This document shows, in pieces, positions 4,885 through 60,960 of a stretch of 64,000 bases of DNA. A program made the position numbers and the translations under genes. Every line of letters starts with the position of its first letter. Position 1 is the stretch's first letter. Below the pieces are notes generated by a model. It saw only the letters and a list, made by a program, of their open reading frames with translations. It did no database searches and was not told the DNA's origin. The DNA is from Laspinema sp. D2d (lineage in GTDB: Bacteria > Cyanobacteriota > Cyanobacteriia > Cyanobacteriales > Laspinemataceae), in NCBI RefSeq assembly GCF_025370755.1, contig NZ_JAMXFC010000001.1, forward strand, positions 124,001 to 188,000, written 5' to 3'.

Positions 4885-5988
4885 TTAATACTCTCTAAAT
4901 CCGTTAATAAATTCCTCGGTCATCCGGTAGGCATCTCCATCGGGATATTGCTTGGGCGGATGCTTCATAAAGTAGGAAGAGGGAGAAAAGAGTACGCCGC
5001 CTTTACCGCGATCGAGGGCCAATTTACAGCAGCGAATCGCATCGATCGCCACCCCGGCGGAGTTGGGTGAATCCTCCACAGACAGGCGCATTTCAATGTT
5101 CATCGGCACATCCCCGAAGAGTTTGCCTTCCACGCGAATAAAACAAACTTTATTATCTTTCTGCCAGGGGACATAATCACTCGGTCCCACATGAATATCC
5201 TCATCCTCCAGTCTAGTTTCACAAACCGACTGAACCGCTTCCGTCTTCGATTCTTTTTTAGACTTTAAGCGGGTGCGATTTAACATATTCAAGAAATCCG
5301 TATTTCCTGCGGTATTGAGTTGATAAGTCCGTTCGATTTTGACCCCTCTTTTTTTCGCCAGGTCAGTAATCATCCGGTGAACAATTGTCGCCCCAAGCTG
5401 GGATTTAATATCATCACCGACGATGGGAATATTGCGCGACTCAAATTTATCCGCCCACAACTGATTACTAGCAATAAAGACCGGAATGCAATTGACAAAA
5501 GCAACCCCTGCTTCTAGGCAGCATTCAGCATAAAAACTCGTTGCTTCTTCCGACCCCACTGGGAGATAATTCACGAGGACCTGAGCGCGGGATTCTTTTA
5601 AAATAGCAATGACATCATCTCGGGTTGGTTCGGGGGCATCGCTCGGGATGAAGGTATATTTGTCTGCATAATTGACTAAATGTTCGGAGACCCCATCTAA
5701 GATTCTTCCCATGCTGACTTTCGTGCCAATTTCGGGAATGTCTTGGCAGAAAACTGTCGTACAATTGGGTTCAGCAAAGATCGCTTTAGAGATATCTTGG
5801 CCGACTTTTCGACGGTCGATATCGAAAGCTGCAACCACATCAATATCGTTCGGTTTATAACCGCCAATATCCCAGTGCATTAAGCCGATCGCTTCTTCAG
5901 AAGTCTTATCTTTATAAAAGTAAATTCCCTGTACCAAGGAGCTAGCACAGTTACCAACGCCTACGATCGCTAGTTTAATTTTTTCCAC
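4885..5988 (-). CDS. myo-inositol-1-phosphate synthase
   Basis: 367 aa from GTG 5988, which follows a GGGGA ribosome-binding sequence. The frame stays open to 6162, but the extra residues are not family-like and the Rossmann strand (KLAIVGVGNCASSLVQGI) begins just after the GTG. The body carries signatures of the compact bacterial/archaeal inositol-phosphate synthase family, for example NTAGNTDFLNML and VGDDIKSQLGATIVHR. The enzyme converts glucose-6-phosphate to inositol phosphate with internally recycled NAD. The length fits the short, non-eukaryotic class. With a downstream PfkB kinase and a convergent CDP-alcohol phosphotransferase, it suggests local inositol lipid or solute metabolism. 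Confidence 0.88.
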   Translation of the reverse strand: MEKIKLAIVGVGNCASSLVQGIYFYKDKTSEEAIGLMHWDIGGYKPNDIDVVAAFDIDRRKVGQDISKAIFAEPNCTTVFCQDIPEIGTKVSMGRILDGVSEHLVNYADKYTFIPSDAPEPTRDDVIAILKESRAQVLVNYLPVGSEEATSFYAECCLEAGVAFVNCIPVFIASNQLWADKFESRNIPIVGDDIKSQLGATIVHRMITDLAKKRGVKIERTYQLNTAGNTDFLNMLNRTRLKSKKESKTEAVQSVCETRLEDEDIHVGPSDYVPWQKDNKVCFIRVEGKLFGDVPMNIEMRLSVEDSPNSAGVAIDAIRCCKLALDRGKGGVLFSPSSYFMKHPPKQYPDGDAYRMTEEFINGFREY

Positions 5989-58812: not shown

Positions 58813-59023
58813 CCTAATGTCCCGCGAGGAATTAAAAGCCTACCTCTTAGCTCATCGAGATGATTTAGAAGCATTAGATGCTTTAGTGAATCGTCGCAGT
58901 TCTGATTCGGAGGCCACCTGGTATCCGGCACCTTTAACTGAAGAAACCATCCGCATTTCTGAGGAGGCAATTCAGCGGCGGATTGCATTAGAAGATCGCC
59001 CTTCTCAAAATTTTTCCAGTTAG
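58796..59023 (+). CDS. DUF6887 family small protein
   Basis: 75 aa from ATG 58796, preceded by GGAGG. Features are MSREELKAYLLAHRDDLEALDALVNRR and a conserved WYPAPLTEE...IRISEEAIQRRI tail. It overlaps the end of the DUF6888 gene, indicating coupled translation. The combination of a helical N-terminus with a short proline-containing tail is typical of the family and recalls antitoxins. No biochemical function is known. Confidence 0.78.
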   Translation: MNPKFDLMSREELKAYLLAHRDDLEALDALVNRRSSDSEATWYPAPLTEETIRISEEAIQRRIALEDRPSQNFSS

Positions 59024-59033
59024 TCGTTCTTGA

Positions 59034-59074
59034 GTTAGGATATTAATATTATTTCGGGCCCTACCGATGCCGGT
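59034..59074 (-). pseudogene. 41-bp fragment copied from a TIGR00725-family gene
   Basis: Bases 59034-59074 match 62602-62642 of the TIGR00725 gene with two mismatches, in the same orientation, and still encode TGIGRARNNINILT on the minus strand. The match stops abruptly on both sides. It is either debris of a second gene copy or a short template-switch duplication. Confidence 0.85.
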
Positions 59075-59235
59075 GATGTTGACTGAGACCCGGAAGGGTC
59101 TGGCTCCATGAACGTAGAGGTCCCAGCCGCTTCGGTGCAGAGTAGCCCGCCCAGGGAGGCTAGGTATGGGAAAATGGGTATAGGCCCTCGGGACTCTAGC
59201 AAGTGATGAGGGGCGGATCAAGAAATTTTGCAAAA
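59075..59235. ncRNA. Structured non-coding segment of unknown identity
   Basis: This GC-rich stretch between the pseudogene fragment and the promoter has several possible stems: AGACCC-GGAA-GGGTCT (a perfect 6-bp stem with a GNRA loop, about 59086-59101), GGCTCC...AGCC pairing, CCCTC...GAGGGG pairing and a final palindrome AATTTTGCAAAATT. It has no protein-coding signature; the 93-codon minus frame across it looks artefactual. It could be a fragment of a catalytic or mobile RNA such as a group II intron, but I cannot name it without a covariance-model search. Confidence 0.35.
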
Positions 59236-59239
59236 TTCC

Positions 59240-59269
59240 TTGACAAAAACCCCAAGGCTGTGGTATCAA
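59240..59269 (+). promoter_or_regulatory. Sigma-70-type promoter upstream of the NYN leader
   Basis: TTGACA (59240-59245), an 18-bp spacer and TATCAA (59264-59269), preceded by the extended -10 dinucleotide TG (59261-59262). Transcription would begin near 59276, giving a leader of about 380 nt before the NYN gene. The assignment is by consensus only. Confidence 0.55.
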
Positions 59270-59287
59270 TGAATGTTAAGCAGCTCA

Positions 59288-59541
59288 GAGAACAACGCAA
59301 GCACTACGCTTGGGTTCTCGTCTTATGAGCAGCACCCCTGTACATTGACTCATCATCAAGTTATTACCTTGGTCTGGTATCAAATTTAGCCAGCCTTTCA
59401 GGTAAGAGATACGAAGTGATGAATACCTGATTTAAAGGCATTCATTTCAACTCCTGTTCATCTCTTCACGCTGAGTGTCTGGCTAAGTTTGATACGAGAG
59501 CAATGTAATAACTTTATAATGATTCAACGTACAAGGGTCCT
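59288..59541 (+). ncRNA. Leader RNA with a stem-loop and a 208-nt imperfect hairpin
   Basis: First hairpin: GAGAAC/GTTCTC with inner CAAGC/GCTTG (59288-59319). Second: 59334-59395 pairs with 59479-59541. GTACATTGACTCATCATCAAGTTATTAC aligns with the reverse complement of the other arm in 24 of 28 positions, and CTGGTATCAAATTTAGCCAG pairs with a one-mismatch partner. Inner arms also pair (AGGTA/TACCT, AAGAGAT/ATCTCTT). The whole folds back as a rod of about 208 nt. A non-coding RNA, a dsRNA-like RNase III target in the leader, or a MITE are the alternatives. The next genes are a NYN RNase and RNase III. Confidence 0.6.
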
Positions 59542-59630
59542 GTGATATTAAGACGACAACCGACCGAATAGAGCTAACAGTTCCAGAATGTATCTGTAGT
59601 TTTACTGTACAGATATATCTCATAAAGCTG

Positions 59631-59649
59631 CCTCAAGTAACAACTGAGG
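59631..59649 (+). promoter_or_regulatory. Hairpin masking the NYN ribosome-binding site
   Basis: CCTCA (59631-59635) is complementary to TGAGG (59645-59649), the only ribosome-binding site before ATG 59656. Pairing would hide it with a 9-nt loop. The stem is short, so it may act together with the upstream hairpin. Confidence 0.5.
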
Positions 59650-59655
59650 TAAAAA

Positions 59656-60129
59656 ATGTCTAGTCAAGTGTCTCTTGGTAAAGTAGCGATTTTTTGTGAT
59701 ACTCAGAATGTACCCTTTCAGTCCGAACAGCAAGTTGGAGCTTTATTGCAATTTGCTACAGAATTTGGAAACCCGTCCTATGTAAAGGCATACGCTGGGT
59801 TCAGAGAACTGAAAAAATCGGCTATTATTCTGGACAAATTTGGTATTGAATGTCGTTGGGTTCAAGAGTCTCGATTTCATAAAAATGATGCAGACAAGAA
59901 AATCAACGCTGACTGCGAGCAATATATTCTCCCTGACCCCGATACATCTACAGTAGTTTTGGTTTCAGGAGACGGGGATTTTATTCCCTTGGTCCGAAAG
60001 CTAAAAGTGCGAGGCATCCAAGTAATGTTGATAAGTCGTTCCGAGAAAAATACCAGTGTGAGGCTACAAAAAATAGTCGATAAAGTTTACTTTTTAGATT
60101 ACATTGAGCGAGAATTTGGAAGCTCATAA
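59656..60129 (+). CDS. NYN-domain (PIN-like) ribonuclease, LabA/DUF88-like
   Basis: 157 aa. The NYN fold is recognisable: AIFCDTQNV with D15 and the conserved asparagine, a middle DKKINADC segment with D86, and VVLVSGDGDFIPLVRKLKVRG with D106 and D108, which together form the metal site of this nuclease superfamily. No extra domain is attached. LabA in cyanobacteria, a related protein, affects clock-controlled expression; other NYN proteins process RNA. Specificity is unknown. A terminator lies 55 bp downstream, so the gene is its own unit with a long structured leader. Confidence 0.85.
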   Translation: MSSQVSLGKVAIFCDTQNVPFQSEQQVGALLQFATEFGNPSYVKAYAGFRELKKSAIILDKFGIECRWVQESRFHKNDADKKINADCEQYILPDPDTSTVVLVSGDGDFIPLVRKLKVRGIQVMLISRSEKNTSVRLQKIVDKVYFLDYIEREFGSS

Positions 60130-60184
60130 TTTGAAATTTAATAGCTTCATTAATTCATAGCTAAAAGTTATGTAATCAATTTGT

Positions 60185-60218
60185 AAAAGGCGAAAATTAA
60201 TTCGCCTTTTTCTTTTTT
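60185..60218 (+). terminator. Strong intrinsic terminator between NYN and RNase III genes
   Basis: Perfect 10-bp arms AAAAGGCGAA (60185-60194) and TTCGCCTTTT (60201-60210), a 6-nt loop and a long T-run. It separates the transcription units. Confidence 0.88.
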
Positions 60219-60232
60219 CACAGGCATAAAAA

Positions 60233-60241
60233 TGCTATAAT
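60233..60241 (+). promoter_or_regulatory. Extended -10 promoter for RNase III
   Basis: TGCTATAAT (60233-60241) is an exact extended -10 element (TGN-TATAAT), 35 bp before the RNase III ATG. The -35 region (TTTTCA near 60213-60220) is poor, as is usual for extended -10 promoters. Transcription should start close to 60248. Confidence 0.65.
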
Positions 60242-60276
60242 ATTGGCCCGTAAAAATAATTTAGAGACTCAGACAA

Positions 60277-60960
60277 ATGGACCATAAGTTATTGAAATTC
60301 ACCAATGAAAAGCTCTTGCTACAGGCATTGACTCATCGTTCTTATGCTAATGAAAATTCGGGCGAATTGCATAATGAACGCCTAGAGTTTTTAGGGGATG
60401 CTATCCTGACCTTTATTAGTGGCGAATACCTGTACTGTCGGCATCCGGAAATGGCAGAAGATGAAATGACTCGACGGCGATCGGCTTTAGTGGATGAAAA
60501 GCAACTTGCCAAATTTGCCACTGAAGTGGGGTTAACCTTTCGGATGCGTCTGGGTCAAGGGATGATTCGGAATGGGGGTTATCAAAGTCCTAATTTATTG
60601 AGTAGTACCTTTGAAGCGGTGGTTGGAGCCTATTATTTAGACTGCGATCGCAAGATGGAGGTACTTCGTCCCATTATCGAGGAGTTATTTGTTTCGGTAT
60701 CTCCCACAATTGTTGAACTTCGCTCTAACATTGATTCCAAAAATAGGCTGCAAGAGTATGTCCAAACAACTTTTGGCTCAATATTGCCCAAATACACCAC
60801 AAAACGGATCGGAGGTCCCGATCATGCACCGGAATATCAATCTATAGTGTCGGTCAATGATGAACCCTATGGAAAAGGCAAAGCTTGTGGCAAGAAAGAG
60901 GCTGAAAAGCAAGCGGCTGAAAATGCCTTGTCTGAGCTTAAAAAGCAGGGTAAGATTTAA
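60277..60960 (+). CDS. rnc: Ribonuclease III
   Basis: 227 aa. The RIII signature NERLEFLGDAIL carries the catalytic E34, E37 and D41, and E113 lies in TFEAVVGAYYLD. The dsRNA-binding domain (about 150-224) has NRLQEYVQTTFG and the C-terminal GKKEAEKQAAENALSELKKQG. Length and motifs are complete, so the enzyme should cleave long double-stranded RNA such as rRNA precursors and structured leaders. Cyanobacteria often encode two or three RNase III homologues; this may be an additional one rather than the sole enzyme. Confidence 0.94.
   Translation: MDHKLLKFTNEKLLLQALTHRSYANENSGELHNERLEFLGDAILTFISGEYLYCRHPEMAEDEMTRRRSALVDEKQLAKFATEVGLTFRMRLGQGMIRNGGYQSPNLLSSTFEAVVGAYYLDCDRKMEVLRPIIEELFVSVSPTIVELRSNIDSKNRLQEYVQTTFGSILPKYTTKRIGGPDHAPEYQSIVSVNDEPYGKGKACGKKEAEKQAAENALSELKKQGKI

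Follow-up and report, generated by a model that had tools for sequence, protein, structure and literature searches.

RNase III cuts long double-stranded RNA, and in type III toxin-antitoxin systems a structured RNA, the antitoxin made of tandem repeats, stands before an endoribonuclease gene. According to excerpts of two reports (PMC3386247, PMC5371410), RNase III also controls its own mRNA, via the leader in Escherichia coli and via the coding region in Staphylococcus aureus and Streptomyces. The enzyme is essential in Bacillus subtilis because it silences toxin mRNAs (txpA, yonT) (PMC3531473, in excerpt), and an RNase III cut in the 5'-UTR of cspA raises translation in S. aureus (PMC3386247, in excerpt). 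For cyanobacteria, 'two-headed' RNases of the HEPN-RNase III-dsRBD type are described in the accessible part of PMC3710099, and a 2022 review of cyanobacterial RNA decay (PMC10989914) discusses multiple RNase III genes, NYN being absent from its main text as far as that is accessible. In mostly open-access literature, partly in excerpt, on NYN or HNH with RNase III and on RNase III hairpins or small RNA in cyanobacteria, we did not find the arrangement described below.

The locus lies at positions 59240-60960 of a 64,000-nt stretch of DNA (the window, whose forward strand all coordinates refer to unless stated otherwise) from a cyanobacterial genome of 6.6 Mb, and comprises, in this order, a promoter, a leader, a NYN gene, a terminator, a promoter and an RNase III gene. 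Like the autoregulated mRNAs of E. coli (rncO), S. aureus and Streptomyces, it links RNase III to an mRNA hairpin that is a plausible substrate of the enzyme; unlike in these, the hairpin heads a nuclease gene, extends over some 40-170 pairs, is free in sequence and is followed in the window by a terminator before RNase III. As in the silencing of txpA and yonT, in the excerpted account, RNase III would restrain a harmful gene through double-stranded RNA, but whereas txpA forms its duplex with an antisense RNA, the duplex here would be folded within the leader itself, and toxicity of the NYN and HNH proteins is putative. In placing a structured RNA ahead of an endoribonuclease gene, the locus resembles type III toxin-antitoxin systems, from which it differs by having no tandem repeats, no terminator found between the RNA and the nuclease, and an RNase III partner. 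The two-headed RNases likewise join RNase III with a second nuclease, and NYN-RNase III fusions occur in the genomes studied here, but no leader RNA is described for the former in the accessible part of PMC3710099.

Structure of the leader

The leader and the NYN gene are preceded by a putative promoter at 59240-59269 (TTGACA, 18 nt, TATCAA). Its TTGACA block (59240-59245) is kept in 7/7 aligned sequences (the window and six relatives), which favors the initial annotation of this site, but a strict consensus promoter scan made no call there and the -10 element TATCAA is poor. The leader closes on itself through a helix, P0, in which GCAGCT (59280-59285) pairs with AGCTGC (59626-59631), as seen in the minimum-energy fold, the listing of flanks and the letters of the 3' strand; the 5' strand reads GACAGC in most other lineages listed, and the 3' strand GCTGTC elsewhere. 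Inside P0, a small hairpin, P1 (CAAGC-actac-GCTTG, 59298-59312), is paired in all six sequences of alignment A2; a stem-loop had been annotated here at 59288-59319, and the hairpin is present but shorter. The most prominent element, a self-complementary rod annotated at 59334-59541 (208 nt), folds at -90.9 kcal/mol (z -11.7), with none of 200 shuffles as good, and turns out to be longer: together with its basal helix P2 it forms 101 unbranched pairs at 59313-59561, with CGTCTTA (starting at 59319) and TAAGACG (ending at 59555) as its anchor. The leader as a whole (59276-59680) reaches a z of -10.0, with 0/100 shuffles as good. Further downstream, a hairpin P3 (59577-59608) is supported by a consensus of six sequences with 63/66 cells paired; the single-sequence fold of the window prefers an overlapping alternative hairpin in this region, and we claim no covariation for P3, which RNAalifold misplaced in alignment A3. 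Finally, the letters of a start-codon-proximal hairpin (CCTCA/TGAGG, 59631-59649), initially thought to mask the ribosome-binding site, are indeed present, but this hairpin abuts P0, competes with it and is absent from the minimum-energy fold.

A second block, 5' of the promoter (59060-59215), is kept in G002, G003 and G004 and not in G007, G011 and G012; it has no Rfam match and might be another RNA. No reverse transcriptase was found among the seven neighboring proteins scanned, and the locus was rejected as a retron. We also found no tandem array at 59000-60300, where a lone direct-repeat pair lies outside the leader, and rejected a type III toxin-antitoxin system defined by tandem repeats.

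Two nuclease genes in two predicted transcription units

The first gene (59656-60129) encodes a NYN-domain ribonuclease of 157 aa (Pfam NYN, PF01936, E 6e-23). Its D, N, D, D and D columns are conserved at 86-99% across NYN loci and kept in the window, and we take these Asp and Asn positions to be typical of NYN catalysis. The second gene (60277-60960) encodes an RNase III of 227 aa with a dsRBD (PF00636/PF14622 with dsrm), an accessory copy, as the genome of the window carries two further RNase III genes. The profile matches and conserved acidic residues place the two proteins in these families and bear out the domains initially assigned. PADLOC matches of the NYN proteins, and of the HNH proteins introduced below (mainly to PtuB-type profiles), were at the level of domains and named no system. 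Searches with conserved peptides of the NYN protein confirmed no close relative in genome_contigs and viral_contigs, and three weak matches (<60% identity) were obtained in plasmids.

Between the two genes lies an intrinsic terminator (60185-60220, terminator scan) that the initial annotation had missed, followed by the extended -10 promoter that it had correctly proposed for RNase III (TGcTATAAT, 60233-60241). Judging by sequence, a terminator and a separate promoter thus isolate the leader of the window from RNase III. A terminator-like site is found in the NYN-RNase III gap of 36/74 NYN loci versus 1/74 with shuffled letters; the other 38/74 have no recognised terminator before RNase III, and co-transcription is therefore possible there.

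Distribution of the leader across cyanobacteria

RNase III genes of the same kind (E at most 1e-58) are present in 141/388 genomes of the order. We analyzed 150 loci, 130 from the order (including the window; 11 of the 141 genomes were left out) and 20 selected, largely by high rank, out of 60 genomes that lie outside the order; the E cut also lets in some RNase III genes of greater distance (e.g., L219, L220, L221). The slot upstream of RNase III is occupied by a NYN gene in 79 loci, by a gene for a small HNH protein in 24 (71-81 aa in the three tested; Pfam HNH and HNH_5) and by neither in 47. A rod, defined by a longest unbranched helix that counts 40 pairs or more within 560 nt upstream, precedes 76/78 usable NYN loci (exceptions L180 and L269) and 21/23 usable HNH loci (exceptions L224 and L316), but only 5/47 RNase III genes without a nuclease, or 5/44 without L219, L220 and L221. 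L262 and L321, with less than 250 nt upstream, were left out of these rod counts (L262 also out of that of the 130 order loci), and L181 (G057) out of all counts. Two of the five exceptional loci, L116 and L203, are alone among them in carrying the anchor described below, and thus an anchored rod directly before RNase III with no nuclease. Dinucleotide shuffles of the 130 order loci reach 40 pairs in 39/390 cases. Over the 97 rod-positive nuclease loci, the rod has a median of 79 pairs over 202 nt, the longest counting 169 pairs.

The association holds at several taxonomic levels, for which genus and family labels were assigned by hand (one genus being entered as unknown): by genus, a rod is found in 49/50 with a nuclease versus 3/37 without, and nuclease-linked rods are present in 19 families. 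Within the largest family, 34/36 loci with a nuclease have a rod versus 2/27 without, so shared ancestry at the family level does not explain the link. The 20 out-of-order loci served as a fresh set, in which the rod was found in 5/5 NYN loci and also in 5 of 15 NYN-less loci; it was the inspection of these five and of L325 that revealed the HNH genes. Before the HNH genes were recognised, the unbranched-pair count had given rods in 6/56 NYN-less order loci, and a first screen in 160-nt segments (dE below -18) had given 54/73 NYN loci versus 10/56, rods longer than the segment being missed.

NYN genes outside the pair were also informative. Two close relatives without RNase III in the locus have 98 (L020, where the anchor is present by eye) and 46 pairs (L013) upstream, and eight distant ones 16-35; L030 (rod of 44 pairs) was set aside, as the NYN domain placed there is not significant (domain E 39). 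Three of four NYN-RNase III fusions remain below 40 pairs (L018 20, L017 23, L019 28) and one has 42 (L014). The presence of rods at NYN genes lacking RNase III, and their scarcity at fusions, indicate that the leader tracks a separate nuclease gene. On comparison of the loci, then, the leader belongs to the nuclease and not to RNase III.

Other gene arrangements were seen as well. Four loci of the Laspinema group (L081, L083, L084 and L085, in G005, G003, G000 and G001) encode a NYN-RNase III fusion of ~386 aa, upstream of which lies a shorter conserved hairpin, GCTGTAGTTACA/TGTAACTACACC, with an inverted repeat inserted in G003. In L078 and L080 (genus g5), a long NYN protein (509-542 aa) adjoins a protein with a C-terminal RNase III domain and an N-terminal region without domain assignment. 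In L082 (G009), upstream of position 5688 on the minus strand, a small HNH protein of the same kind is apparently encoded, as judged by eye, this HNH-like DNA lying directly 5' of a NYN-RNase III fusion.

One family of leader RNAs

The leader is present in a single copy in its own genome. A DNA search of 59 genomes, including that of the window, gave strong matches in seven (the window's genome, four congeners and two genomes of genus g5), each of them with leader, NYN and RNase III in this order; two more genomes gave matches of 26-30 nt only (E 0.005-0.008). Leader DNA had no match in phage and plasmid collections, and the basal-helix pattern none in viral_contigs. Rfam returned no match at gathering score for the window and 20 related loci, and at E up to 0.1 one sub-threshold microRNA-like match that we take as chance.

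Most rods share an anchor, GTCTYA...TRAGAC, on which the rod stands: a matched anchor of this type is found in 64/76 NYN rods and 17/21 HNH rods, and the same rule finds it in 7/1020 shuffled sequences. In addition, a block before the NYN start codon, TAGATGTGTGATTTnTTGAnGCTGTCC, searched with up to 3 mismatches, occurs at 31 places in 30/388 genomes, and its reversed control matches nowhere in the 388; the pattern detects part of the family only, the window itself not being matched. All 31 matches adjoin a NYN gene, as expected if the hairpin is tied to this locus, 30 of them at a NYN and RNase III pair, and 29 lie upstream of such a pair within the 141-genome set; in G257, the NYN gene is followed by an RNase III outside the set defined by E 1e-58. 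In G364 (L292:1322-4862, reverse complement), the intact leader and NYN gene are followed, 3 kb downstream, by a duplicate that comprises part of the leader and a truncated NYN gene. Leaders of HNH loci match NYN leaders by blastn in 18/24 loci, up to 92% over 185 nt, showing that the two nuclease types share a leader.

A covariance model of the core without the rod, R1, also detected the RNA in further families, where the rods differ in length. Among its matches, the leader lies before NYN at a contig end in G353, and directly 5' of RNase III in G246. In L117 and L119 (genomes G297 and G277), where NYN has decayed to remnants recognised by eye, the basal core is kept but the rod has shrunk to a few bases. 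R1 and a second model, R2, match in 11/388 and 13/388 genomes, and find few relatives because the rod varies. One of the 13 matches of R2 is weak (G057, E 0.02), at a locus where no RNase III motif was found; applied to 32 loci it matched five at E up to 0.5, of which two are HNH leaders (L196, L317), most HNH leaders being missed. Upstream regions were compared locus by locus in place of a search with these models. The hairpin of the window belongs to a leader RNA that has no Rfam match and occurs widely among cyanobacteria.

Selection on the RNA

By sequence, the 74 NYN rods divide into 24 clusters. In two of them, aligned from the members with comparable rod boundaries (A4, 12 of 21; A5, 7 of 10), double changes that keep the pair affect 17/71 pairs (12 sequences) and 11/86 pairs (7 sequences), values reached by 0/500 shuffles and compared with at most 8 and 3 in slid controls; the structures come from the same alignments and are favored by this on the slide test, and the shuffle test ignores relatedness. 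The count of pair types gives a weaker signal, with 2 and 73 of 500 shuffles reaching the observed value.

A strand test, less exposed to both problems, compares G-U pairs with A-C mismatches. G-U exceeds A-C by 557 to 242 over 72 rods, by 189 to 68 with one rod per cluster, by 538 to 282 in 66 rods picked on the antisense fold and by 207 to 68 in 21 HNH rods; the rod of the window alone (3 G-U versus 5 A-C) offers too few to tell. Covariation support is weak in the window's own group, where RNAalifold gives an unfavorable covariation term (+3.1 kcal/mol, six sequences) and 5/99 pairs are double-changed. The covariation in two clusters and the G-U counts far above A-C indicate that selection acts on the sense-strand RNA, in support of the early suggestion of a selected, structured RNA linked to NYN and RNase III.

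Exchange of the nuclease

The NYN proteins diverge far more than their RNase III neighbors. In 5/6 congener pairs they are 36-55% identical, versus 98-99% for the RNase III of the same pairs; between the window and G002, G004 and G007, the values are 46-55% and 98-99%. G002 and G007 have in common a shortened rod with an identical breakpoint, and their NYN proteins are only 36% identical. G003, G004 and G007 have one NYN in common (95-96%), the RNase III of G003 being 90% identical to the other two. Among 40 pairs with RNase III identity from 95% to below 100%, NYN identity spans 27-99%, with a median of 45%. With one kind of leader in front, NYN alleles replace one another and HNH replaces NYN, a pattern that looks like an effector slot.

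A model for control of the nuclease

The comparison of loci shows a leader selected at the RNA level, its link to swappable nucleases and a terminator that separates the two genes in the window; the arrangement suggests that RNase III controls the nuclease through the hairpin. The reading that we prefer, and to which as a whole we give about an even chance, is a module of two units in which a dedicated RNase III holds the nuclease in check by cutting the rod in trans. The first unit would be the nuclease gene (NYN here, a small HNH elsewhere), its mRNA headed by the conserved leader with its closing helix, small hairpins and rod of ~40-170 pairs on a conserved base; the second would be the RNase III gene next door, with its own promoter in the window. 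The rod would serve as a built-in double-stranded substrate, and we infer that its cutting by the RNase III of the second unit would keep the nuclease mRNA low. Upon loss or inhibition of RNase III, or its titration by foreign dsRNA, the leader would survive and the presumably toxic nuclease would be made. Silencing in trans would explain the link of rod and nuclease, the free sequence of the rod, its loss upon NYN decay and the neighborhood of the two genes. The two other RNase III genes of the window's genome could also cut the rod.

The initial annotation had seen in the two RNases and the hairpin leader a self-regulating loop of RNA decay, or a standalone RNA processed by these enzymes; its observation is confirmed and its interpretation partly supported, since the link to NYN and RNase III stands but the leader goes with the nuclease gene rather than with RNase III. 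For the same reason, autoregulation of the rncO type, in which the rod would lie in RNase III's own mRNA and its cutting would lower RNase III synthesis, is not the best reading, and we hold it to be unlikely. E. coli, S. aureus and Streptomyces provide known cases of RNase III autoregulation (excerpts of PMC3386247, PMC5371410), in L116 and L203 the leader immediately precedes RNase III, and the gap without recognised terminator in 38/74 NYN loci would allow for it; yet the terminator and separate RNase III promoter of the window place the rod outside the RNase III mRNA, 42/47 nuclease-less RNase III genes have no 40-pair rod, and L020 and L013 bear rods with no RNase III in the locus. Unlikely, too, is that the rod is itself the product, diced by RNase III (with NYN or HNH) into small or rod RNAs with a role in trans, be it as a guide, a decoy or an RNA antitoxin against the nuclease; this would amount to a bacterial counterpart of hairpin-RNA silencing. 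Selection of long hairpins on the transcribed strand, a conserved base that might be a processing site and the RNase domains of NYN and RNase III would all suit such a product, but the rods form 24 sequence clusters, the leader of the window has no second match in its own genome, in phages or in plasmids, and a location just before the start codon fits a leader.

The sign of the control could also be the opposite of the repression that we favor, as the excerpted cspA precedent of S. aureus (PMC3386247) indicates: RNase III cleavage would then activate the nuclease mRNA, either by opening up its start region or by making it more stable. Hairpin-forming letters do adjoin the start codon in the window and its relatives, but the favored fold of the window lacks this hairpin, and we regard activation as improbable. 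That the rod is a MITE, as the initial annotation had allowed, or another chance inverted repeat has next to no probability. It is a long imperfect inverted repeat of variable sequence, but a MITE should occur in many copies at unrelated loci, and the single copy in the genome, the locus specificity of the 3' block in 388 genomes, the covariation and the G-U excess lead us to reject it.

Implications

Under the preferred reading of silencing in trans, a more specific possibility, which we put forward tentatively and consider clearly less probable than not, is a dsRNA-sensing module: the dedicated RNase III would continuously destroy the rod-bearing mRNA of a hypervariable, swappable nuclease, and dsRNA of phages or mobile elements, or an inhibitor of RNase III, would unleash the nuclease. 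The module would then act as a toxin-like defence, its sensor being the self-contained leader. The leader and its genes would represent a new RNA family and a new gene module, here in 19 cyanobacterial families, whose most diverged parts (rod sequence, nuclease allele and nuclease type) are flanked by conserved ones. They would offer a bacterial RNA hairpin selected for double-strandedness and not for sequence, and give a testable role to the extra RNase III genes of cyanobacteria.
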